Part shown: positions 4,975-14,085 of the stretch, in pieces
Layout of the letters: each line of letters starts with the position of its first letter
How positions within the stretch are numbered: position 1 is the first letter of the stretch
Assembly (NCBI RefSeq): GCF_018860165.1
Contig: NZ_JAHKNG010000013.1
Coordinates: 1-64,000, forward strand
Origin: Paracoccus marinaquae
GTDB taxonomy: Bacteria > Pseudomonadota > Alphaproteobacteria > Rhodobacterales > Rhodobacteraceae
Reading direction: 5' to 3'
DNA length: 64,000 nt
Translations under genes and position numbers: made by a program
The notes under the pieces: model-generated
What the model was told of the DNA's origin: nothing
Database searches by the model: none
The model's input: the letters and a program-made list of their open reading frames with translations, nothing else

Positions 4975-5670
4975 CTATTTCCGCGGCTTGCCCCTGAACG
5001 TGTCCAGCCAGCCGGTGAAGCGTCCGCGGGCCTCGCTGGCCTCGGCCACGACCCGGTCGCGGGCGGCGTCGGCGCCGGCCTCGACATCGTCCCAGGCCTG
5101 ATCGACGCGGGCCACGGCCGGGTCGATGGTGCGTTCGCGGAACTGCGCCCACATGCGCCAGACCAGCAGCAGCAGGATCAGCAGGATGCCGCAGACAACC
5201 ATGGCGGCCCAGTTGCGCGGACGCTCATCCGGGCCGGCGAGCGTATCGACCGAGATGGCGTTGGGATAGATCGTCAGCCACGGGATCCGCCAGCCATAGG
5301 CGGTGATGCTGACCCATTGCGGATCGGCCGAGTTGGAACGGAGATTGGTCGCCTCGGAATGCAGGTTGGCGCTGTCATATTTGAAATAGGGCGGCCAGAT
5401 CCAGCCGGTATCCTCGTTGCGATAGACGAAGACCTTGCCGTTCGGGCGCACCGTGTCGATGAAGCGCACGTCGCGCTGGCCGGCGGCGTTCTCGACCGTG
5501 CCGGTATCCTCGGCGGCGTAGAAGATCGCGTTCGACGAGGTGATCGGGGTCAGCCGGTTATAGGTATTGGTGATCCGGACCGTGTTCTTCGAGGGCAGCG
5601 TGTAGTCGAGGAAGGCGAAGACCACGACGCCCAGCAGCACCCCCAGCAAGACCTTGACGTAATACAGCAT
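4975..5670 (-). CDS. DUF1523-family membrane protein
   Basis: This 231-aa protein has an N-terminal membrane segment (VKVLLGVLLGVVVFAFLDY, about residues 5-23), a ~130-residue extracytoplasmic domain and a second membrane segment (AAMVVCGILLILLLLVW, ~150-167). It ends in a charged cytoplasmic helix rich in Ala, Asp, Glu and Arg. The central domain motifs (NTVRITNTYNR, DVRFIDTVRPNGKVFVYRNEDTGW, PPYFKYDSANL) match the DUF1523 family found in alphaproteobacteria and some gammaproteobacteria. Function is unknown. It is the last gene of a minus-strand cluster with an AAA+ ATPase and other unknowns; 12 nt separate it from the small membrane protein upstream, and a strong hairpin follows 50 nt downstream. 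Confidence 0.75.
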   Translation of the reverse strand: MLYYVKVLLGVLLGVVVFAFLDYTLPSKNTVRITNTYNRLTPITSSNAIFYAAEDTGTVENAAGQRDVRFIDTVRPNGKVFVYRNEDTGWIWPPYFKYDSANLHSEATNLRSNSADPQWVSITAYGWRIPWLTIYPNAISVDTLAGPDERPRNWAAMVVCGILLILLLLVWRMWAQFRERTIDPAVARVDQAWDDVEAGADAARDRVVAEASEARGRFTGWLDTFRGKPRK

Positions 5671-5682
5671 GCGTGGCGCCCC

Positions 5683-5964
5683 TTATTGCCAGTTGACCCA
5701 ATAGACGACCGCCATGACGGCCAGCGTCGGGATGATGAAGACCAGCCACAGCAGCCGCGCCTTCAGCGTCCGGTCGAAGCCGACCATCGACTTGCGGACA
5801 AACTCGTCCCGGGCCGGGTTGTTCCCGGCGCGGTCGGGATGACGCGCGTCCCAGATCTCCTCGAGCCGCTCGCGCCGCAGCGACCGGATATAGATCCGCA
5901 GGAGCAGATAGAACATCGCCTCGAGAAGCAAGACCAGGACGATCAGGCGAAACAGCGCAGCCAT
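5683..5964 (-). CDS. Small two-TM membrane protein of unknown function
   Basis: This is a 93-aa protein with two hydrophobic segments: FRLIVLVLLLEAMFYLLLRIYI at ~5-26 and LLWLVFIIPTLAVMAVVYWV at ~71-90. Between them is a charged loop of about 45 residues (RRERLEEIWDARHPDRAGNNP). The start at 5964 lies one nucleotide from the stop of the upstream gene (5966), and the next gene starts 12 nt downstream, so translation is very likely coupled. I recognise no family. The membrane topology and its position between the DUF6638-like and DUF1523 genes suggest it is a membrane partner of those proteins (inference). Confidence 0.75.
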   Translation of the reverse strand: MAALFRLIVLVLLLEAMFYLLLRIYIRSLRRERLEEIWDARHPDRAGNNPARDEFVRKSMVGFDRTLKARLLWLVFIIPTLAVMAVVYWVNWQ

Positions 5965-5965
5965 C

Positions 5966-7351
5966 CTATTCCCCCCATGGACCGGCGGGGCGCGGCAGCC
6001 CGGCTTCGCTGAGGCTGACGCGCGGGCTGCCCCAGGGGCCCGAGCCGGCCCGGGCCGGAGCGGGGGGCGCGCCGGGTTCGCGCATGCCCGGCTCGGGGCC
6101 GAACAGGGCCTCACGGGTGCCCTGCTTGTCGATGGCGTATTCGCGGGCCAGCATCTCGGCCACATAGGCGCGCTTGTCGTCGGGCCAGGTCTGGTAGAGG
6201 CGGTAGAACAGCGGCTTGTGGGTGATGAACAGCTGGCGGATGTCATGCGGCGCCAGTTCCGACAGCAGCCGGTTGATCAGGTCGCGGGCCGGGCCGGGCG
6301 TGGCGCGGATGGCGTAGAAATAGGCCGGGTCGGCGCTGTCGATCACCGGCCAGTCGCCGCCCTGTTCGGCATAGCGCTGCAGCGCCGCCAGCCCCCTGAC
6401 CTCGGGCGGCAGGTCGGCGCCCATCCGGCCCGCCGCGCGGCGCAGCCCGGCGCGGCCGCCATCGCCGGCCCCGATGCCCAGCCGCACCGCCGCATCGGCC
6501 AGCACGAAGTCGATCTTCTGGCGCAGGATCGGGCCGGCATCGGCGCCGCGCGCGCTGATGATCGGCTCGGCCAGCGCGTTGCGCGCCAGCCAGGCGGCCA
6601 GCTTGTGGCGGTCCCCGGTGGTGAGGCTGAGAAAGCCCTTGACCTCGACCGCCTGGGCCGGGTCGGCGAAGATCATCGCCGCCTCCTTCGACGAGCGGAT
6701 CACATAGACGCCGCCGAAACCGGCGGTCCAGAAATCCGGCACCTCGAAATCGGTGCGGTTCAGGCGGATCGGGTTGCGCAGCACATCGCCGGATTTCCGG
6801 GCCTGCTCGATCATCCGGGCGATCAGCACGTCGTCCCACCAGGCATCGGCTTCAGTGCGGAATTTCTCGATCATCGAGGCCAGCCGGTCGGCCTCGGCCA
6901 CATGGTTGCCGGTGGTGTCGGCGCTGACGGTCAGGCGGCGGATATTGGGAAGATCGGCGGGGCCGGTCAGCTGCCAGACCTGATCGTCGATCTGGCCCAG
7001 CACCGCGTCGCGGGCGGTCAGGCTGAACAGCTGGCTTTCGTTTCCGGTGATGAACTGGCGCATCACGTCGCGCAGCACCGACAGATCCGCGTTCAGCATC
7101 GGCGCGGTCTTCTGCTCGGTCGTCAGCAGGATGAACTGCCGCTCGGCCCCCTTCGGCGCCAGATAGTCCATGTCGCCCAGCTCGTCCCCGATCTCGGGGG
7201 AATGGCCGCTGATGTCGATGTGGAATTCGCTCAGCGCGGTTTCGCGGCCGGTGATCTTTTTCAGCGCGCGGTTATAGAGCCCCACCCAGGCGGTCGAATC
7301 CACCCGGATGAGATTGCCGAACATCAGGCCCTTTTCGATGAGGCGTTTCAT
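5966..7351 (-). CDS. Uncharacterised soluble protein, DUF6638-like
   Basis: A 461-aa soluble protein with no membrane segments. The N-terminus (MKRLIEKGLMFGNLIRVDS, HIDISGHSPEIGDELGDMDY, RQFILLTTEQKTAP) matches a conserved Rhodobacterales family that I recall as DUF6638; I am fairly but not fully sure of that number. The middle has FRTEADAWWDDVLIARMI and FWTAGFGGVYVIRSSKEAAMIF. The last ~40 residues are Pro/Gly/Ala-rich and look disordered. The ATG at 7351 is chosen because the conserved family N-terminus begins there and GGAAG lies just upstream. It follows a probable terminator at 7474-7491, so it may have its own promoter in the 7352-7559 gap, or depend on read-through from the ATPase unit. 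Confidence 0.7.
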   Translation of the reverse strand: MKRLIEKGLMFGNLIRVDSTAWVGLYNRALKKITGRETALSEFHIDISGHSPEIGDELGDMDYLAPKGAERQFILLTTEQKTAPMLNADLSVLRDVMRQFITGNESQLFSLTARDAVLGQIDDQVWQLTGPADLPNIRRLTVSADTTGNHVAEADRLASMIEKFRTEADAWWDDVLIARMIEQARKSGDVLRNPIRLNRTDFEVPDFWTAGFGGVYVIRSSKEAAMIFADPAQAVEVKGFLSLTTGDRHKLAAWLARNALAEPIISARGADAGPILRQKIDFVLADAAVRLGIGAGDGGRAGLRRAAGRMGADLPPEVRGLAALQRYAEQGGDWPVIDSADPAYFYAIRATPGPARDLINRLLSELAPHDIRQLFITHKPLFYRLYQTWPDDKRAYVAEMLAREYAIDKQGTREALFGPEPGMREPGAPPAPARAGSGPWGSPRVSLSEAGLPRPAGPWGE

Positions 7352-7473
7352 CTGCGGCTTCCGGGCGTGACAGAGGGCTGCGTCCAACCGTGGAGGGACG
7401 CGGCGACGGTGCCGACGGGCAGTTCATGGGACCACACCGCCAGACCCGACGAGGGGGCGCAGGCGACAGCAAA

Positions 7474-7491
7474 GCCCCCGCCCATGGGGGC
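7474..7491 (-). terminator. Probable intrinsic terminator after the low-GC exported-protein gene
   Basis: GCCCCC (7474-7479) pairs with GGGGGC (7486-7491) around a 6-nt loop. On the minus strand the stem is followed by TTTGC. It lies ~70 nt downstream of the stop at 7560 and ~120 nt upstream of the DUF6638-like start. The stem is short and the T-run only 3 nt, so termination may be partial. Confidence 0.45.
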
Positions 7492-7559
7492 CTGCCCGGG
7501 TCGCTGACGCGGCTGTTCCGGGCGGGGAGCGATTCTGCAACAACCCGCAACCAATCGTA

Positions 7560-7988
7560 TCATTCGCAGACACCCATCCCGATGGCTACCCCCGAAACTG
7601 CAATGAAGGGTTTATTCGAGCCATCCGCGAAAGTTTCGATTTGAAGGTAAACGGTATTCCGAAACGGTGCTTCGCCCTCGCTGGGAGACGATGACAAAGG
7701 TGATAGAGAGATCACTTTGAAACTCGATTCTGATGCGCCATAATCTAGAACTTGCCTTTCACCATATGTTTCATTTCCAAACTTTGGATGGAACACGGTG
7801 CCGGTTTCTCGATCAACAATCATTATGTCGTCGCTAAAATCATCAGAAAGAGGATGCGGATCTAGCAGACCGTCGCTTCTGAGAGTTTTGACTTCAACAA
7901 GTTTGCAGCGAAAAGACGCTCCGAACGAAGGCCCAGCCAAGACTTGCAGCAATACTAATGCGGCAGCGAATATATGAGTATGGTTCAT
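7560..7988 (-). CDS. Small exported protein of unknown function with low G+C
   Basis: This 142-aa protein has an N-terminal signal peptide (HTHIFAAALVLLQVLAGPSFGA-S, cleavage near residue 24) and a mature domain with no family I recognise. A Cys just after the cleavage region (FRC) and one at the C-terminus (GVCE) could form a disulfide. Its ATG overlaps the TGA of the upstream AAA+ ATPase (ATGA at 7985-7988), so it is translationally coupled. A hand count over 7561-7980 gives about 48% G+C, far below the operon around it. This suggests the gene was acquired separately, yet it is joined to the operon without any gap. It probably acts in the periplasm. Confidence 0.7.
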   Translation of the reverse strand: MNHTHIFAAALVLLQVLAGPSFGASFRCKLVEVKTLRSDGLLDPHPLSDDFSDDIMIVDRETGTVFHPKFGNETYGERQVLDYGASESSFKVISLSPLSSSPSEGEAPFRNTVYLQIETFADGSNKPFIAVSGVAIGMGVCE

Positions 7989-9910
7989 TCGCCCTCCCCA
8001 AACCGCCGCTTTGCCTCCTGCATCCGCTCCATGCCACGCACGGCGTCCTCGATGGCGGCCTCATCGGCGCTGTCGGAATAGCGCCATTCGCTGTCGGCAT
8101 AGCGGTTGATCTCCTGCACCACCATCGCGGTGGTGATCGGCTTGCGCAACGTCTCGATCATCTCGAGCTTGCGGGCATAGGGCTGGTGCAGGAACGGCTC
8201 GGGCGCCGCAAACCATTCGTCGGGCATGTCGAAATCCATCGCCCGGGCCTTGACCGCATCGGTGATGTTCTTGACCGCGCGGCCGGTGAAGCGCGGCTCG
8301 GCCTCGGCGATGGCGTGGAGATAGCTGCCCAGTTCGGCCAGATCGTCCAGCGCGCCATAGGTCGCGCTGATCTCGGTGAAAACCTTGTCCAGCCCGGCCT
8401 CCTGCGGGCGGGAATGGCCGTCATAGCTGTCGGCCACGGCCTTTCGCATCGCCTGCGCGGCCATCAGCTGGTGGTCGCCCACGGGGATGCCGTGGCGCTG
8501 GCCCAGCAGCAGGGCGAGGATGTCGATGTAATCGGCCCGCGTCTTCGGCCCGTCGATCAGGAAACGGGCAGAGGCGCGCTGACGCAGGGCGTCGTCGATC
8601 GCCTCGGCATGGTTCGAGAACATGCCGAAGGTCGCGTTGCCGCGCACCACGGTCGAGGCGCCGGCAAAGGCCTCCATCAGTACGGCGGTGATTTCCTGCT
8701 GCCCCGAGGAGGACTGCCGGTCGCCGCGCCGGCCGGCGATCTGGTCGATATCGTCGATGGTGCCGAAGCCGATCACCTTGGGGTCGATCACGGCATTGAT
8801 GAAGGCGCGCGCGTTCTGGCCCGACTTGCCCTGATAGCTGTCGATATTGTCCACCGACAGGTTGCGATAGCGGAACGGATAGCCCGCCATCTGGCAATAG
8901 TCGTTCAGCAGCCCGGCCATCATCTGGATCAGCGTGGTCTTGCCGGTGCCGGGGCGGCCATCGCCGAGGAAGGTGAAGGTAAAGCCGCCCAGTTCGACGA
9001 AGGGATTGGTCATCCGGTCGAAATCATAGGCGACCATCATCCGCGCCAGCCGCATCGCCTGATGCTTGGCGATGGCATTGCCGATGACCTCCTCGGGCTT
9101 CTTGAAGCTCATGGCGACGGGGCCGCCGCTGGCCTTGGTGGCGGGCGCGAAGCCGGCGATGGGAAAATCGTCGGCCCCGACCCGCCAGCCGGCACCGGTG
9201 AAGGCGCCGATGCGCGGCGCGGTCTCGCCGCGCGCCGCTGCGGCCGAGGACAGGGCCTCGGCCCAGGCCAGCACGGTGGCGATCAGGCTGTCATCGTCGC
9301 GCGCCGCGCGGGCGAGGTTCTGGTCCAGTTCCCACAGCGCGCCCTGAAGCGCGGTCAGCGGGTTGTCGGTCAGCACCTCGTCGGCGCTGACCTCCTCGAC
9401 CGTCTTGGCGCCGGCATGTTCGGCCAGAAGGAAGGTCGTCGCATTGGCCAGAACCGACAAGGCCGCCAGCGCCTCGACCGCCAGCAGTTCGGCGAATTCG
9501 CGGTGCCGGTCGGGCGCCAGGCGGTTTTCCAGATTGACCCGGCGCAGTTCCGCCGCCCCCGAACGCGCCGCCACCTCATCGGCCACCGCGAGCGCGATGG
9601 CCAGCGCCCGGCGCAGCACCCGCGCCATGGTCGCCGCCGCGGGCGTCAGCAATTCGTCGCCGCCGGCATTCTCGATCCGTTCCAGCAGGCGCACGCCCTC
9701 GGGACGCGCGGCCGGGCGGCCGACCAGCCCCGGCGTGGTCGGGCGGAACCGCGCCCCCGAGGGAATGCCGGGCGAGCGTTCGGGCACGGCCCGCGGCGCG
9801 CCCTTGCCCAGCCGCGGCGCGTGTTCAAAGCCGGTCAGCAGCGACAGCGCCTGCGGGTAATGCCGCAGGATCTCGTCTTCGGGCAGTTCCATCTCGTTGC
9901 GGGCGTCCAT
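7985..9910 (-). CDS. AAA+ ATPase with a long helical N-terminal region
   Basis: In this 641-aa protein residues 1-~265 are Ala/Glu/Arg-rich and mostly helical, with no domain I recognise. The AAA+ module follows: Walker A GDGRPGTGKT at 316-325, a Walker B-like hhFGTIDDID at 382-389, sensor 1 Asn in VRGNATFGMFSN (~N425), and arginine-finger candidates in DDALRQRASARF (439-450). The C-terminal ~180 residues form the lid and a helical tail. The short spacing and the RxR after sensor 1 resemble the classical FtsH/CDC48-type clade (inference). The protein begins directly at the stop of the glycolipid-binding-like gene (TGAATG) and overlaps the next gene by ATGA. As the only obvious energy-coupling protein in the cluster, it probably remodels or assembles the products of its neighbours. 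Confidence 0.85.
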   Translation of the reverse strand: MDARNEMELPEDEILRHYPQALSLLTGFEHAPRLGKGAPRAVPERSPGIPSGARFRPTTPGLVGRPAARPEGVRLLERIENAGGDELLTPAAATMARVLRRALAIALAVADEVAARSGAAELRRVNLENRLAPDRHREFAELLAVEALAALSVLANATTFLLAEHAGAKTVEEVSADEVLTDNPLTALQGALWELDQNLARAARDDDSLIATVLAWAEALSSAAAARGETAPRIGAFTGAGWRVGADDFPIAGFAPATKASGGPVAMSFKKPEEVIGNAIAKHQAMRLARMMVAYDFDRMTNPFVELGGFTFTFLGDGRPGTGKTTLIQMMAGLLNDYCQMAGYPFRYRNLSVDNIDSYQGKSGQNARAFINAVIDPKVIGFGTIDDIDQIAGRRGDRQSSSGQQEITAVLMEAFAGASTVVRGNATFGMFSNHAEAIDDALRQRASARFLIDGPKTRADYIDILALLLGQRHGIPVGDHQLMAAQAMRKAVADSYDGHSRPQEAGLDKVFTEISATYGALDDLAELGSYLHAIAEAEPRFTGRAVKNITDAVKARAMDFDMPDEWFAAPEPFLHQPYARKLEMIETLRKPITTAMVVQEINRYADSEWRYSDSADEAAIEDAVRGMERMQEAKRRFGEGE

Positions 9911-10462
9911 TCAATCCTCTTGCGTCCAAAATTCCGGATAGTCGGTCACGAAACCGTGCCGGTTCACCGTCAGGAATGTCTCGAAACCGGGTTCGGCGGC
10001 GCGGTAATGCCAGCGCCCGTCCGCCTGCCGGCGATAGCCTTGATGCAACGGTTTCAGCCGCCAGTCACCCTCGTCCAGCCAGATTGCCGCGCTGTCGCCG
10101 CCGCCCGGCACCTTCAGGCGGTTCAGCGCCAGCGTGTTGGTGGCGGGGGTGAAGGCCAGATCCAGATCGATCAGCCCGTGGCTGCCGGGCACCTCGGCAC
10201 CGTTCGCGCGCCATTCGCCGCCCGCGCCGCGCCGGATCGAGAGGCTGAGCCCCTGCCCCGCCACGCGCCCCGACAGCCGCGCCGAACGGGTCTGCCAGTC
10301 CTCGCCGCAGATGATGCTGTAGGTGACCTGCGCCGGGCCGTTGCGGTCGCGCCAGGCCGCCGCCCCCTCGAGATGCCACTCGCCCGCCTCGAAGCGCAGC
10401 GCGCAGGCGTCGTGGCCGGGCCGGTCCAGCCGCCGCCACAGGATCAGCGCGCCGGCCGCCAT
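9911..10462 (-). CDS. Putative glycolipid-binding domain protein (PF06475-like)
   Basis: A 183-aa protein matching the putative glycolipid-binding (DUF1089) fold along its whole length: an ILWRRLDRPGHDACAL start, EWHLEGAA, YSIICGEDWQTRSARL, the WRANGAEVPGSHGLIDLDL strand pair, TPATNTLALNRL, then GDWRLKPLHQGYRRQ and the VNRHGFVTDYPEFW C-terminus. These are the family's conserved blocks in the correct order. It has no signal peptide. The family is implicated in lipid binding by structural similarity to lipoprotein-carrier folds; no direct function is proven. Its ATG overlaps the upstream stop (TGATG at 10460-10464) and the ATPase gene follows without a gap, so all three are translated in a coupled way. 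Confidence 0.8.
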   Translation of the reverse strand: MAAGALILWRRLDRPGHDACALRFEAGEWHLEGAAAWRDRNGPAQVTYSIICGEDWQTRSARLSGRVAGQGLSLSIRRGAGGEWRANGAEVPGSHGLIDLDLAFTPATNTLALNRLKVPGGGDSAAIWLDEGDWRLKPLHQGYRRQADGRWHYRAAEPGFETFLTVNRHGFVTDYPEFWTQED

Positions 10463-11595
10463 CAGCGATACCCCGCCACGCGCCCGTCCGGGCCGGGCAC
10501 ATATTTGCGGATGTCGCGGAACCCCGCCGGATCCAGCGCCGCCAGCGCCTGATAGGGTCGCTGCGGCAGGATCAGCGCGCGGGTCGCGGCACTGGCCCCC
10601 TGCCCGGCGCCGTGCGCGTTCAGCGGATCCAGCCGGAACACCTGCCGCTCGACCACGCCGAAGAAGCCGCTGGATTCCAGTGTCGCGCGCGCGGCCTGCA
10701 GATCCTCGACGGTCAGGGCCATGGCCCAGTCCTCGCCCGCCGGGGCGGCGGCGTTTTCCAGCACCTGCCGGATCGGGCCTTCCTGACGGGTGAAGCCCTG
10801 CGAATAGACCGGACCCAGCACGATCCGGCGCAGCCGCATCGGATGCAGCGTGTCGAAATCGCGGTCGAAGCCCTGGGCGATGGTCAGAAGCTGCAGCGAG
10901 GTCACCGCCTGCGCCAGAAGATGCGCGCGCACCTCGGGCCAGCGCTTGGCGTCCTCGACCAGCGGGCGGCGGCCGCTGTCATCGGCATCCATCAGATAGA
11001 TCACCGGCACGTTCAGCCGGCTGTCATAGACGCCCCAATGCAACAGCCAGCGCCGCCGCTGCCGGTCATTGCCCGACAGCCAGTAGCCCTGCGGATGCAT
11101 CTGCGGCCAGAACAGCCCGCCCTTCGCCAGCGCCTCGTAATAGAGCCGCTGCGACAGCGCATATTGCAGCCGCGTGGGGATGGTCAGCCGGCCGACGATC
11201 TCGCGGATCATGTCATCCTTGATCGCCTCGGGCGCGGGCGTCCGGGCCAGTTCCTCGCCCGCCTGCGCGGCATCGGCGGCGGTCTGGGCGATCTCCTGCC
11301 AGACGGGAAAGCCCGATTCGTGGATGTCGATGGTCAGGTGCCGGCGCAACGGCCCCTCGATCCGGCCCGCGACGAGATATTTCATCGACAGCGCCTCGAT
11401 GCTGGTGCCAAGCGCCGCCAGATAGCCGCCGATCACCTCGGTCTCGATCCGCGTGAACAGCCCGTCGCGCACCATTTCGGCCAGCGCCGCGGGCAGCACG
11501 CCCGCGACCCTGCGCGTCTGGTCGAAATAGGCCCGCGCGGTCAGGTCGTCGTCAAGCGCCCGGTGATCGGCGTCAAGATTGCCGGTTTCAGCCAC
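10462..11595 (-). CDS. Uncharacterised 377-aa soluble protein in the AAA+ operon
   Basis: The protein is soluble with no membrane segments and no family I recognise. Visible features are a helical N-terminal half (FDQTRRVAGVLPAALAEM, IGGYLAALGTSIEALSMKYL) and a tryptophan-rich patch (GYWLSGNDRQRRRWLLHWGVYDSRLNVPVIYLMD). A C-terminal beta-rich part contains VVERQVFRLDPLN and ends in YVPGPDGRVAGYR. The start is a GTG at 11595, 3 nt after the stop of the coiled-coil gene, with no good Shine-Dalgarno. Translation probably relies on coupling; a GGTGGCTGA repeat covers the junction. Its constant position between the TelA-like and glycolipid-binding-like genes makes it a core component candidate of this cluster (inference). 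Confidence 0.75.
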   Translation of the reverse strand: MAETGNLDADHRALDDDLTARAYFDQTRRVAGVLPAALAEMVRDGLFTRIETEVIGGYLAALGTSIEALSMKYLVAGRIEGPLRRHLTIDIHESGFPVWQEIAQTAADAAQAGEELARTPAPEAIKDDMIREIVGRLTIPTRLQYALSQRLYYEALAKGGLFWPQMHPQGYWLSGNDRQRRRWLLHWGVYDSRLNVPVIYLMDADDSGRRPLVEDAKRWPEVRAHLLAQAVTSLQLLTIAQGFDRDFDTLHPMRLRRIVLGPVYSQGFTRQEGPIRQVLENAAAPAGEDWAMALTVEDLQAARATLESSGFFGVVERQVFRLDPLNAHGAGQGASAATRALILPQRPYQALAALDPAGFRDIRKYVPGPDGRVAGYR

Positions 11596-11598
11596 CGC

Positions 11599-12672
11599 TC
11601 AGCCACCATAGAGGTTGCTGTCGTGCTTCTGGACGATCTCGGCGAAGCGGCGGGCGAAGCGCTCGTCGGCCTTGGCCTTTTCCTCGAGCACCTTGCGGGC
11701 GAAGACCATGTGGTCGCCATGCGCCTCGAGCATGTCGGCCATCCGGTCGTTGGTGGCGGTACCGATCGCGGCCATCGCGGCCTGCGCCTCCTGATCGGTC
11801 TTCACGCCGATCTCGTTGATGCGATGGGCCACGTCCTGCTGCTGCGCGGTCTTCAGCGACTTGGTCAGCGCGTCATACAGCACCACCCGCTGGCGGGTAT
11901 CGGTCTGCAGCTTGTTGATCAGCACCATCTGGGTCGCGGCCTGGTTCTGCAGGCTGTCCACCCAGGTCTTGCCGGCCTCGATATAGCGTTCCAGCGTCTG
12001 CGACTTGGCCAGCGCCACCTGTTCGTCCTGGATCAGCGCGTTGTGATCCTTGTTGGCATTGGCAAGCTCGGTCTCGACGCGGGTGCGTTCGGCCGGATCG
12101 GTGGTCGCGGCGACCTTGTTTTCCAGTTCGATCAGCTTCGGATCCATCGCCTTGATCCGGTCGCGCAGGCCCTCCAGCGTGGCGACCGTGTCCTCGCGCT
12201 CGGTCAGGGTCGAGGTCAGGTTGCTCTCGACCTTCTGCTTCTGGTCGTTCAGCAGTTCAAGCTGGCCCTGCAGCAGCCGGGTGATGGTGTCAGACTTGGA
12301 AATCAGGTCCTGCAGCTTGTCGTCGATACTGGCCGAGCGGAGCCGTTCCTGCCGCATCGCCTCGGATTTGCCGCTGGCGAAGATGCCGACGAAGCTTTCC
12401 CAGCCGGTCTTGCTGCGCAGATCCTCGAAATCCTTCGAGAAGCCGGCGGTCACATCGTCCAGGCCCATGATAAGTTCGGCGATATTGGCGTTCATCGCCT
12501 CGGTATGGGCGTGGACATCGGCCAGCGTGGCATTGGCCACGTCGATCGGCATCTCGGCCACATCGGCCCGCGCGGTGGCCCGGTCCAGCGCCGCCGTCAT
12601 CTCGGAAATCTTGCCCTGCGCCAGCGTGACCTGCTGCTGGCTGTCCTTGATCTGCTGTTCCAGCGACGCCAT
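11599..12672 (-). CDS. TelA-like coiled-coil protein
   Basis: This 357-aa protein is almost wholly helical with long coiled-coil stretches: residues 1-45, ~115-220, and ~225-355. The segment LERYIEAGKTWVDSL at 228-240 followed by helices rich in Gln/Leu (AATQMVLINKLQTDTRQRVVLYDALTKSL) resembles the conserved YIxAG core of TelA/KlaA toxic-anion-resistance proteins. The N-terminal part of TelA is not clearly matched. TelA-type proteins are known from tellurite and envelope-stress loci. The ATG at 12672 has a near-perfect Shine-Dalgarno (GGGAGGTGA), so this is the well-translated first gene of the minus-strand operon that includes the AAA+ ATPase. The promoter should lie in 12673-12804, shared with the divergent M20 hydrolase gene. 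Confidence 0.7.
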   Translation of the reverse strand: MASLEQQIKDSQQQVTLAQGKISEMTAALDRATARADVAEMPIDVANATLADVHAHTEAMNANIAELIMGLDDVTAGFSKDFEDLRSKTGWESFVGIFASGKSEAMRQERLRSASIDDKLQDLISKSDTITRLLQGQLELLNDQKQKVESNLTSTLTEREDTVATLEGLRDRIKAMDPKLIELENKVAATTDPAERTRVETELANANKDHNALIQDEQVALAKSQTLERYIEAGKTWVDSLQNQAATQMVLINKLQTDTRQRVVLYDALTKSLKTAQQQDVAHRINEIGVKTDQEAQAAMAAIGTATNDRMADMLEAHGDHMVFARKVLEEKAKADERFARRFAEIVQKHDSNLYGG

Positions 12673-12804
12673 CGTCACCTCCCTTGTGCTTTTGCCTGAT
12701 GTTAGGGCCACAGGCTGCCGGTGCAAGGGGCGCGTCTGCCTATCCGCCCGGCTGCAATGGAAACGTCATTGTCTCCGCGACCGGCCCGGCCTAGCGTGAT
12801 CGGC

Positions 12805-14085
12805 ATGAATCTCTTGAAAGCCGCCATCGCTGCCCGCCGCGATCAGCTGATCGCGCTGACGCAGGATCTGATCCGCATCCCGACGCTGAACCCGCCGGGG
12901 CGGCATTACCGCGACATCTGCGACTATCTGCAGGCGCGCATGGCCCCGCAGGGATGGGAGTGCGAGATGATCCGCGCCCATGGCGCGCCCGGCGACAGCG
13001 AGCAGTTTCCCCGCTGGAACATCGTCGCCCGCCGCCGGGGCGCAGGGCCGGGCGACTGCGTGCATTTCAACAGCCATCACGACGTGGTCGAGGTCGGCCA
13101 CGGCTGGACCCGCGATCCCTTCGGCGCCGAACTGGACGGCGACCGCATCTATGGCCGCGGCGCCTGCGACATGAAGGGCGGGCTGGCGGCCAGCATCATC
13201 GCCGCCGAAGCCTTTGTCGCCACCTGCCCCGACCATGCCGGCAGCATCGAGATCAGCGCCACGGCGGACGAGGAATCGGGCGGCTATGGCGGCGTCGCCT
13301 TTCTGGCCGAACGGGGCGCCTATGCCCATGTCGATCACGTCATCATCCCCGAACCCCTGCACAAGGACCGCATCTGCCTTGGCCATCGCGGCGTCTGGTG
13401 GGCCGAGATCGAGACGCAGGGCCGCATCGCCCATGGCTCGATGCCGTTCCTGGGCGATTGCGCCGTGCGCCACATGGGCGCGGTGCTTGCCGAGATGGAG
13501 GCGGCGCTGTGGCCCCTGCTGGCGGCCAAGCGCACCGAGATGCCGGTGATCCCCGAGGGCGCGCGATCCTCCACGCTGAACATCAACGCCATCCATGGCG
13601 GCGCGGCGGAGCAGGCCGAGGACTATACCGGCCTGCCCACGCCCTGCGTGCCCGACCGCTGCCGGATCACCATCGACCGCCGCTTTCTGATCGAGGAGGA
13701 TCTGGCCGAGGTGAAGGCCGAGGTCACCGCCCTGCTGGAGCGGGTCCGGGCGCGGCGGCCGGGGTTCCGCTATGAGATCCGCGACCTGTTCGAGGTGATC
13801 CCCTCGATGACCGACCGCGAGGCGCCGGTCGTGCGCACGACGGCGGCCGCGATCGAGCGTGTTCTGGGGCGCGAGGCGGGCTTTGTCGTCAGCCCCGGCA
13901 CCTATGACCAGAAACATATCGACCGGATCGGCAAGCTGAAGAACTGCATCGCCTACGGGCCGGGGGTGCTGGATCTGGCCCATCAGCCCGACGAGTGGAT
14001 CGGCGTTCAGGACATGCTGGACAGCGCCGGGGTCATGGCGCTGGTGCTGCAGGATCTGCTGTGCCGCGAGGCCGGGTCATATTGA
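12805..14085 (+). CDS. M20 family metallo-amidohydrolase (ArgE/DapE-type)
   Basis: A 426-aa protein of the acetylornithine deacetylase / succinyl-diaminopimelate desuccinylase family. Metal ligands appear in order: HxD in FNSHHDVVEVG, the bridging Asp in YGRGACDMKGG, and the catalytic Glu pair in ATADEESGGYGG. The dimerisation domain starts near GHRGVWWAEIETQGRIAHGS. It is probably a cytoplasmic zinc enzyme removing an acyl group from an amino acid derivative, but the exact substrate cannot be read from the sequence. The ATG at 12805 fits the family N-terminus; an upstream in-frame extension to 12721 is Arg/Pro-rich and unlikely. It is divergent from the TelA-like operon and precedes the membrane hydrolase gene by 63 nt. 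Confidence 0.85.
   Translation: MNLLKAAIAARRDQLIALTQDLIRIPTLNPPGRHYRDICDYLQARMAPQGWECEMIRAHGAPGDSEQFPRWNIVARRRGAGPGDCVHFNSHHDVVEVGHGWTRDPFGAELDGDRIYGRGACDMKGGLAASIIAAEAFVATCPDHAGSIEISATADEESGGYGGVAFLAERGAYAHVDHVIIPEPLHKDRICLGHRGVWWAEIETQGRIAHGSMPFLGDCAVRHMGAVLAEMEAALWPLLAAKRTEMPVIPEGARSSTLNINAIHGGAAEQAEDYTGLPTPCVPDRCRITIDRRFLIEEDLAEVKAEVTALLERVRARRPGFRYEIRDLFEVIPSMTDREAPVVRTTAAAIERVLGREAGFVVSPGTYDQKHIDRIGKLKNCIAYGPGVLDLAHQPDEWIGVQDMLDSAGVMALVLQDLLCREAGSY

Follow-up and report, generated by a model that had tools for sequence, protein, structure and literature searches.

Eight genes on one strand of a Paracoccus marinaquae contig (NZ_JAHKNG010000013.1), within a 64,000-nucleotide stretch referred to here as the window, raise the question of which of them belong together and what they do. 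An initial annotation had read all eight as one assembly that uses ATP to remodel lipid or membrane-associated partners, perhaps in envelope stress.

Gene content of the locus

The eight open reading frames are present in the order that had been claimed (Table 1), and the overlaps were all recovered: TGATG between B and C, TGAATG between C and D, and ATGA between D and E. By alignment, the start of F is most likely the ATG at 7351 rather than 7387.

Table 1. Genes at positions 4975–12672 of the window.
Gene	Product	Status	Positions	Strand
A	357-aa coiled-coil-like soluble protein	core	11599..12672	-
B	377-aa protein without family match	core	10462..11595	-
C	PF06475 glycolipid-binding-fold protein	accessory	9911..10462	-
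D	641-aa classic AAA ATPase	core	7985..9910	-
E	142-aa protein, hydrophobic N-terminus, AT-rich	orphan	7560..7988	-
F	DUF6638 protein	core	5966..7351	-
G	93-aa protein with two hydrophobic segments	site resident	5683..5964	-
H	DUF1523 protein, two hydrophobic segments ~130 residues apart	site resident	4975..5670	-

The proposed coupling of the genes holds in the window for the three overlaps, but tight A-B and D-F spacing is not a feature of most related loci. The A-B gap is ≤50 bp in 18 of 58 loci (median 130 bp) and the D-F gap in 7 of 57 (median 477 bp). F-G and G-H spacing is tight wherever both genes were located (52/52 and 44/44 loci, respectively). With A-B and D-F so loosely spaced in relatives, cotranscription of all eight genes is not favoured. 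As for the membrane segments that had been reported, hydropathy supports two each in G and H and one at the N-terminus of E, with a borderline segment in D and none in A, B, C, or F.

A four-gene core

The conserved unit is smaller than eight genes and consists of A, B, D, and F, which are kept or lost as a block. In a draw of 149 genomes from the order of the window, each of the four occurs in the identical set of 89. They follow the one-strand order A-B-D-F in 57 of 59 loci examined, this order is preserved across families and classes, and rhizobia and Vibrio megaplasmids likewise carry the four together. One locus of the 59, from a MAG (L015), is exceptional in reading A-B-C-D, with F, G, and H absent from the following 7.5 kb. 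There is usually one copy of the cassette per genome, and the identified flanking genes are metabolic, encoding an M20 peptidase, an aldehyde dehydrogenase, a DeoC-type aldolase, thymidine kinase, and formate-tetrahydrofolate ligase. The usual separation of the genes, which was to count against a cluster, is not what is seen for A, B, D, and F.

A second draw covered 247 genomes of a Rhizobiaceae-like family (f174), so called by inference because the locus is common to named Sinorhizobium, Shinella, and Rhizobium records. Here D is found in 146 genomes and A in the same 146 plus 11. Some D-bearing genomes of this draw gave A matches of <500 bits, with three partial matches (G866, G918, and G1097), and a draw at the level of the phylum gave two weak A matches (G559 and G669, E 3e-4 to 5e-4).

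The four genes also co-vary. Distances were compared in 48 of the 59 loci, leaving out a decayed copy (L078), a locus in which D is split into two ORFs (L005), and loci in which any of the five genes compared was not located. Correlations among A, B, D, and F are 0.86–0.93 against 0.64–0.73 with the adjacent H, although H is shorter and faster-evolving, which alone is enough to lower its values. In the 34 non-Paracoccus loci the corresponding ranges are 0.65–0.86 and 0.28–0.46, with B, D, and F the most tightly correlated (0.81–0.86).

The remaining genes show that the eight-gene extent was drawn too wide. C carries the Glycolipid_bind domain PF06475 (128.7 bits vs. a cut-off of 25), but occurs in 10 of the 59 loci, all of them Paracoccus and only part of that genus, and the suggested lipid role, which rested on C, is not supported. 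E has a GC content of 46.9%, compared with 63–71% in the other seven genes, was found in none of the 59 related loci, and was probably inserted recently between D and F. H is a DUF1523 protein (PF07509, 217.4 bits vs. a cut-off of 23). G and H are kept at the site by relatives that lack the cassette and are residents of the site, not part of the conserved unit. Pfam families PF20343 (DUF6638), PF07509, PF10095 (DUF2333), and PF06475 contain F, H, the membrane gene of rhizobia described below, and C, respectively; none of them defines a system, and PF06475 is named as putative only.

Gene D, the ATPase

The AAA domain of D is well supported (Pfam 48.3 bits vs. a cut-off of 21.2, E 1.7e-12), and Pfam places no second domain in the protein. 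Its motifs include Walker A (GDGRPGTGKT), a pore loop (YQGKS), Walker B (IDDID), and a conserved Arg cluster (LRQR). When aligned to the i-AAA protease 5ubv, the YQG of the pore loop falls on YVG and Walker B on FIDELD. Walker A and the pore-loop-1 aromatic-x-Gly, both covered by this alignment, are identical in 13/13 diverse copies, as is the whole of Y359-Q360-G361-K362-S363. By these motifs D is a classic AAA ATPase with a conserved threading-type pore loop, consistent with the earlier description of a remodelling-type ATPase adjoining membrane-protein genes, D being a core gene and G-H lying at the site.

The Walker motifs noted earlier are thus present, but Walker B departs from the usual form, with Asp replacing the Glu of the aligned protease. 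The acidic pair is Asp-Asp (D386-D387) in 13/13 copies where Asp-Glu is usual, and D may therefore hydrolyse ATP slowly or not at all. The FtsH/i-AAA ATPase domain (5ubv) can be aligned with D over Walker A, the pore-loop aromatic-x-Gly, Walker B, and the residues that follow. Unlike these enzymes, D has an extended N-terminal region, carries Asp at the second Walker B position, and comes with three fixed partner genes, A, B, and F.

Gene A is not TelA

A had been labelled TelA-like, and this label fails. TelA/KlaB (PF05816) resembles A in length and helical character only. Pfam gives no PF05816 match at E ≤ 1 to A of the window, nor does A of S. meliloti or Vibrio match this family. A separate TelA (349.5 bits) sits on another contig of the same genome (C111), apart from A, and a search of the genome for the family at E ≤ 10 found matches on that contig only. 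Comparison of the A profile with a five-row TelA profile using hhalign gave a probability of 0.2%, equal to an unrelated control, both profiles being shallow. On these results TelA identity was rejected. PspA and Snf7 families are also absent from the Pfam matches of A at E ≤ 1, and a sequence search against solved structures returned nothing coherent (best E 0.083). A stands out by a C-terminal segment that is strongly conserved around SLKTAQQQDVAHRIN and spans residues 266–300, with the motif SLKTAxQQDVAHxIN.

Genes B and F

B matches no family, although many of its polar residues are kept across families. Its AlphaFold2 model is confident and has no clear match among solved folds, with no Foldseek match at E ≤ 0.001. 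The best fold comparison (Z 4.5, rmsd 4.0, 120 residues aligned) is equalled by fructose bisphosphatase, which is unrelated. F is a DUF6638 protein, as had been proposed (PF20343, 558.2 bits vs. a cut-off of 27), in which a variable linker modelled with low confidence is followed by a nearly invariant GPWG close to the C-terminus. The F model, of fair confidence overall, likewise lacks a clear solved-fold match (none at E ≤ 0.001; best Z 3.5). Sequence searches against solved structures found nothing coherent for B (best E 1.4) or F (best E 0.16), and direct comparison showed that the two are not related to each other. Weak or missing matches in these searches are no proof of a new fold.

Natural losses of B-D-F

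Part of the unit has been lost in some Rhizobiaceae-like genomes. In 10 of the 11 genomes with A but without D, a DUF2333 gene comes next after A, and B and F are absent from the fetched stretch; the contig of the eleventh stops after A. In these ten genomes A is retained next to the gene for a DUF2333 membrane protein. Nine of them have an A in which the conserved segment has been deleted or can no longer be recognised. The tenth (L153) represents a separate loss; there, of eight segments compared, this one shows the lowest conservation (0.58 vs. 0.62–0.88), albeit by a small margin. The 13 copies counted as full in this comparison include L152, whose contig ends after A.

The damage to A is not confined to this segment. 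In the nine degenerate copies residues 266–300 stand at 0.16, compared with 0.17 for residues 1–60 and 0.15 for residues 301–325. Because other segments have fallen just as far, what favours a motif-specific effect is chiefly the deletions and L153. The ten loci also represent few events, with a tree minimum of three changes.

A candidate remodelling machine

A tentative reading, and the one we prefer, is that A, B, D, and F form one protein-remodelling machine in which D engages A through its conserved segment beside an inner-membrane protein. At its centre D would be an ATP-driven motor, probably acting by pulling a long, coil-shaped partner adjacent to the inner membrane. D would be expected to form a hexamer and pull protein through its own pore. 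A, as a long soluble helical protein, would be the partner of D, most probably its client, while B and F would serve as adaptors or regulators. Together with B and F, D would engage A through SLKTAxQQDVAHxIN, and an assembly of A would be taken apart or reset beside the inner-membrane protein, G-H in the family of the window and DUF2333 in rhizobia. Support comes from the conserved gene order, the all-or-none presence in the family of the window, the AAA motifs of D with the pore-loop aromatic among them, and the co-variation of the four genes. It comes too from the retention of A and a membrane gene, with damage to the A segment, when B-D-F is lost. The hexameric state of D, its threading activity, the client role of A, the adaptor roles of B and F, and the location at the membrane are inferred. 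A may instead be an adaptor or scaffold.

A narrower version, which we consider doubtful as a whole, is a four-protein ATP-driven disassembly machine that recycles its own polymerising scaffold, A, via the C-terminal segment at an exchangeable inner-membrane dock. This dock would be DUF1523 with G, or DUF2333, while B and F would be two partner families matching no solved fold in the searches made. Such a machine would be of a previously undescribed kind, a functional parallel to Vps4 and ESCRT-III built from unrelated parts. Vps4 is a AAA ATPase that acts with ESCRT-III, a helical partner near the membrane bearing a C-terminal recognition segment, and the proposed D-A pair would share these three features. 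To our knowledge, Vps4/ESCRT-III has no counterpart of B and F.

Rubisco activase, CbbQ, and NorQ insert cofactors into their own target enzymes or free them from inhibition. By analogy B could be an enzyme or cofactor carrier, with D and F inserting the cofactor or relieving inhibition and A acting as scaffold. The conserved polar residues of B fit this idea, as does the tight correlation of B, D, and F. In addition, among the 50 VIA rows listed for B, urate oxidase, QueF-like, pterin, and GTP-cyclohydrolase enzymes, which share the tunnelling fold, account for 38. However, the best Z of B, tied with fructose bisphosphatase, lies within the range of common arrangements, and Foldseek finds no match at E ≤ 0.001. 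This model also leaves the loss of the conserved A segment upon B-D-F loss unexplained, and we regard it as unlikely.

Less likely still is a conflict or stress cassette, for instance against phage, gained and lost as an all-or-none unit at one site. The patchy presence, repeated loss, and insertion-prone D-F junction would be in keeping with this, as would weak PADLOC matches of the D AAA domain to IetA (20.4 bits) and TRIP13 (22.5 bits) and of A to JetC3 (18.7 bits), NsnC (13.9 bits), and LmuB (12.3 bits). However, none of B, C, E, F, G, and H has a PADLOC match at E ≤ 0.01, and NCBIfam IteA, the Iet-type defence ATPase, reaches 13.3 bits against a cut-off of 510. The usually single copy per genome, the metabolic neighbours, and the lack of a phage record matching D also argue against it. 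Matches to defence systems are weak throughout. Phage origin was rejected as D has no match to phage records at E ≤ 1e-5. PHROGs matches of D fall on the AAA domain (best phrog_3757, annotated as of unknown function, 39.5 bits), while A and H match PHROGs weakly (18.4 and 18.5 bits).

TelA-type tellurite or toxic-anion resistance is very improbable, as similar length and helical make-up are all that speak for it against the negative family, genome, and profile searches. It is just as hard to credit that A, B, D, and F are loose chromosomal neighbours without shared function: the long A-B and D-F gaps would suit this, but it is refuted by co-occurrence in the same 89 genomes, order kept over classes, joint loss, and matched distances. 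C, E, and in part G-H may be such neighbours.

Relation to the literature and significance

The view that the unit is undescribed stands, insofar as the searchable part of the literature yielded no description of A-B-D-F. Nothing was found there on DUF6638, and DUF1523 papers do not describe the unit as far as their titles and abstract openings show. Judged by title and abstract opening, the cluster is also absent among the matches listed for TelA with AAA and Rhodobacter and for TelA with Vps4 and coiled coils. DUF2333 appears, in the text available, in work on the T6SS hcp3 locus. In S. meliloti, SMc02726 is given as shmR, and gene counting from shmR in the corresponding locus (L103) plausibly makes SMc02733 gene D. 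The sole hint of a link to envelope stress is that SMc02733 contains a ChvI-bound fragment, according to the accessible part of the report (PMC3687685).

A cassette whose function is not described in the searchable literature is kept by ~60% of sampled genomes of the order of the window (89/149), and Sinorhizobium and other rhizobia have it too. Genomes that lost B-D-F naturally while A survived suggest a candidate interface segment that is directly testable, and offer a setting for finding the functions of DUF6638, DUF1523, and DUF2333.

Gene content of the cluster

The eight minus-strand genes A to H, together with the divergent neighbour of A, are listed in the table. Pfam assigns C to Glycolipid_bind, D to AAA, F to DUF6638 and H to DUF1523; A, B, E and G have no Pfam match reaching the cut-off, and none of the eight matches NCBIfam at cut-off. 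The overlaps B/C, C/D and D/E described in the initial annotation are borne out in the sequence. E has a GC content of 46.9% vs. 63–71% for the seven other genes, and no homologue of it was found in 59 related loci or in the plasmid records searched.

Features of the cluster and its divergent neighbour (positions in the window)
Feature	Position	Strand	Description
Genes A to H	12672-4975	minus	eight ORFs
Gene E	7560-7988	minus	AT-rich orphan, hydrophobic N-terminus, at the D-F junction
M20 peptidase gene	12721-14085	plus	divergent, adjoins A

A conserved four-gene cassette

Querying named genomes with B identified 19 loci, all from Paracoccus, each carrying A, B, and D (D as two ORFs in L005) and none carrying E. 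In a draw of 149 genomes from the order, all listed ones belonging to the window's family, a profile for each of A, B, D, and F found 89 genomes, and these were the same 89 in all four lists. The cassette is divided between two contigs in G137, G007 and G080 each have one stop codon that F reads through, and G123 retains a decayed remnant in place (locus L078) in which only pieces of A, B, D, and F matched.

Across 59 loci, comprising 40 stretches fetched from the 89 genomes and the 19 named loci, A, B, D, and F are ordered on one strand in 57. The two exceptions are the decayed copy and L015, from a MAG, in which A-B-C-D is present and F, G, and H were not found in the next 7.5 kb. The proposal that the genes co-occur in the same order thus holds for A, B, D, and F but not for C, present at 10/59 loci and exclusively in Paracoccus, or for E (0/59). 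Spacing of F-G and G-H is tight at every locus where both genes were located, and that of A-B, B-D, and D-F is often not tight. Differing lineage-specific genes occupy the D-F junction, an insertion-prone spot (L010, L061, L063, L066, L077, L086, L103) with inserts including varied small hydrophobic or helical proteins, a weakly DUF4145-like gene and a DUF559 endonuclease; in S. meliloti it holds an ISRm16 element.

G and H as residents of the site

DUF1523 is found in 108/111 genomes of the order, in 65/65 cassette-bearing vs. 43/46 cassette-free genomes. None of A, B, D, and F was found at 12 fetched cassette-free H loci, 10 of which retain G beside H. This persistence of G and H speaks against the eight-gene unit originally proposed. 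An M20 peptidase gene, a family present in 25/60 loci, precedes A in many cassette loci; in four of the 12 cassette-free loci (L166, L167, L168, L174) it precedes G-H without any other credible gene intervening. Loci of this kind indicate that A-B-D-F is gained or lost as a block which, judged by gene order, comes or goes in front of a resident G-H pair. Protein distances agree with a block apart from H. Across 34 non-Paracoccus loci the six pairs among A, B, D, and F correlate at 0.65–0.86 and pairs with H at 0.28–0.46; for all 48 loci used the values are 0.86–0.93 and 0.64–0.73, the lower H correlations being partly noise because H is shorter and faster-evolving.

Distribution outside the family

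A draw of the class with DUF6638 matched 8/385 genomes, seven over the cut-off, five of them from the window's family. The other two (loci L100, L101) carry A-B-D-F then H, with G seen only in L100. Searching D against 72,556 plasmid records gave 10 matches, in Sinorhizobium, Rhizobium, Shinella, and Vibrio. In S. meliloti, A, B, and D are followed by an endonuclease gene with an IS element, next by F and then by a DUF2333 gene, in place of which R. leguminosarum has a sigma-70 gene after F. Two Vibrio records show A, B, D, F, and A of the window and of Vibrio share 36% identity. A phylum draw with A matched 32/398 genomes, 26 at ≥499 bits; fetched examples again contain A-B-D-F, and one from another class (L135) has a DUF1523 gene at the locus end.

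In both the window's family and rhizobia, the site is flanked by deoxynucleoside-salvage genes: a DeoC-type aldolase and an aldehyde dehydrogenase follow G-H in the former (L174 8406-11559), and a thymidine kinase gene precedes A in the latter (L139 8874-9641). In Vibrio, a 279-aa protein without a Pfam match precedes A (L104 8032-8871, L106 6032-6871) and is a possible additional partner in that genus.

Properties of the cassette proteins

The profile of D aligns with the ATPase domain of an i-AAA protease (E 0.00018; the sole chain under 0.01), pairing YQGKS with the pore-loop YVG and IDDID with the Walker B FIDELD. Both motifs are identical in 13/13 diverse copies. D differs from the protease in having Asp at the position of the usual catalytic Glu. 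On these motifs, D is a predicted ATPase of the classic AAA kind.

A has no detected membrane segment, contains 0.8% proline, and has a heptad signal reached by 5/200 shuffles. Its TelA-like label was rejected: A has no family match, profile comparison gave 0.2% probability, equal to an unrelated control, and the genome encodes a separate, true TelA on contig C111 (L102 2425-3753; 349.5 bits to PF05816).

The predicted model of B (mean pLDDT 89.3, pTM 0.87) matched no PDB chain at E ≤ 0.001, with urate oxidase and fructose bisphosphatase tied at the best Z of 4.5. That of F (mean pLDDT 83.5, pTM 0.79; last 40 residues <50) gave no match in a fold search. Most alignment rows of F share a nearly invariant GPWG near the C-terminus (window ~5966-6010), after a variable low-confidence linker; it is absent from F of L101. 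Linker and motif look like a putative docking peptide.

Natural losses of B, D, and F

Among 247 genomes from the family of G795, inferred to be Rhizobiaceae, 157 carry A and 146 carry D. All 11 with A but without D were inspected. One is 68% complete and its contig ends after A; in the other 10, DUF2333 follows A, neither B nor F was found in the fetched stretches, and a thymidine kinase gene still adjoins the locus in eight. Nine of these 10 A copies score 42–148 bits vs. 500–554 in 23 complete loci, and have gaps within 266-325. Of the eight segments compared, 266-300 shows the highest conservation in reference copies. At sites ≥80% conserved in 13 reference copies, the nine degenerate copies retain a fraction of 0.16 in 266-300 and 0.15–0.48 in other segments, with 1-60 (0.17) and 301-325 (0.15) as low. 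L153, the tenth, clusters with three complete loci that share its genus code, and 266-300 is the least conserved segment of its A (0.58 vs. 0.62–0.88). A DUF2333 tree of 33 loci requires at least three changes of state; therefore, the events were few but more than one. Our reading of these sequences is that A, which stayed with its membrane partner, was released from a putative interface with B, D, or F.

Proposed mechanism

We know of no described system with this set of parts. The open-access papers searched yielded no description of the cassette. To our knowledge its newness lies in the partner set around D, itself a classic AAA protein. One S. meliloti study places a ChvI-bound fragment within SMc02733 (PMC3687685), the only, putative, hint at envelope regulation.

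Taking the unit, its order, the motifs, the joint presence of its genes and the release of A's segment as observed, we infer that D would act as a hexamer that threads A as its client. Most likely D, aided by B and F, would engage A through the 266-300 segment, and would disassemble or reset it at the inner membrane.
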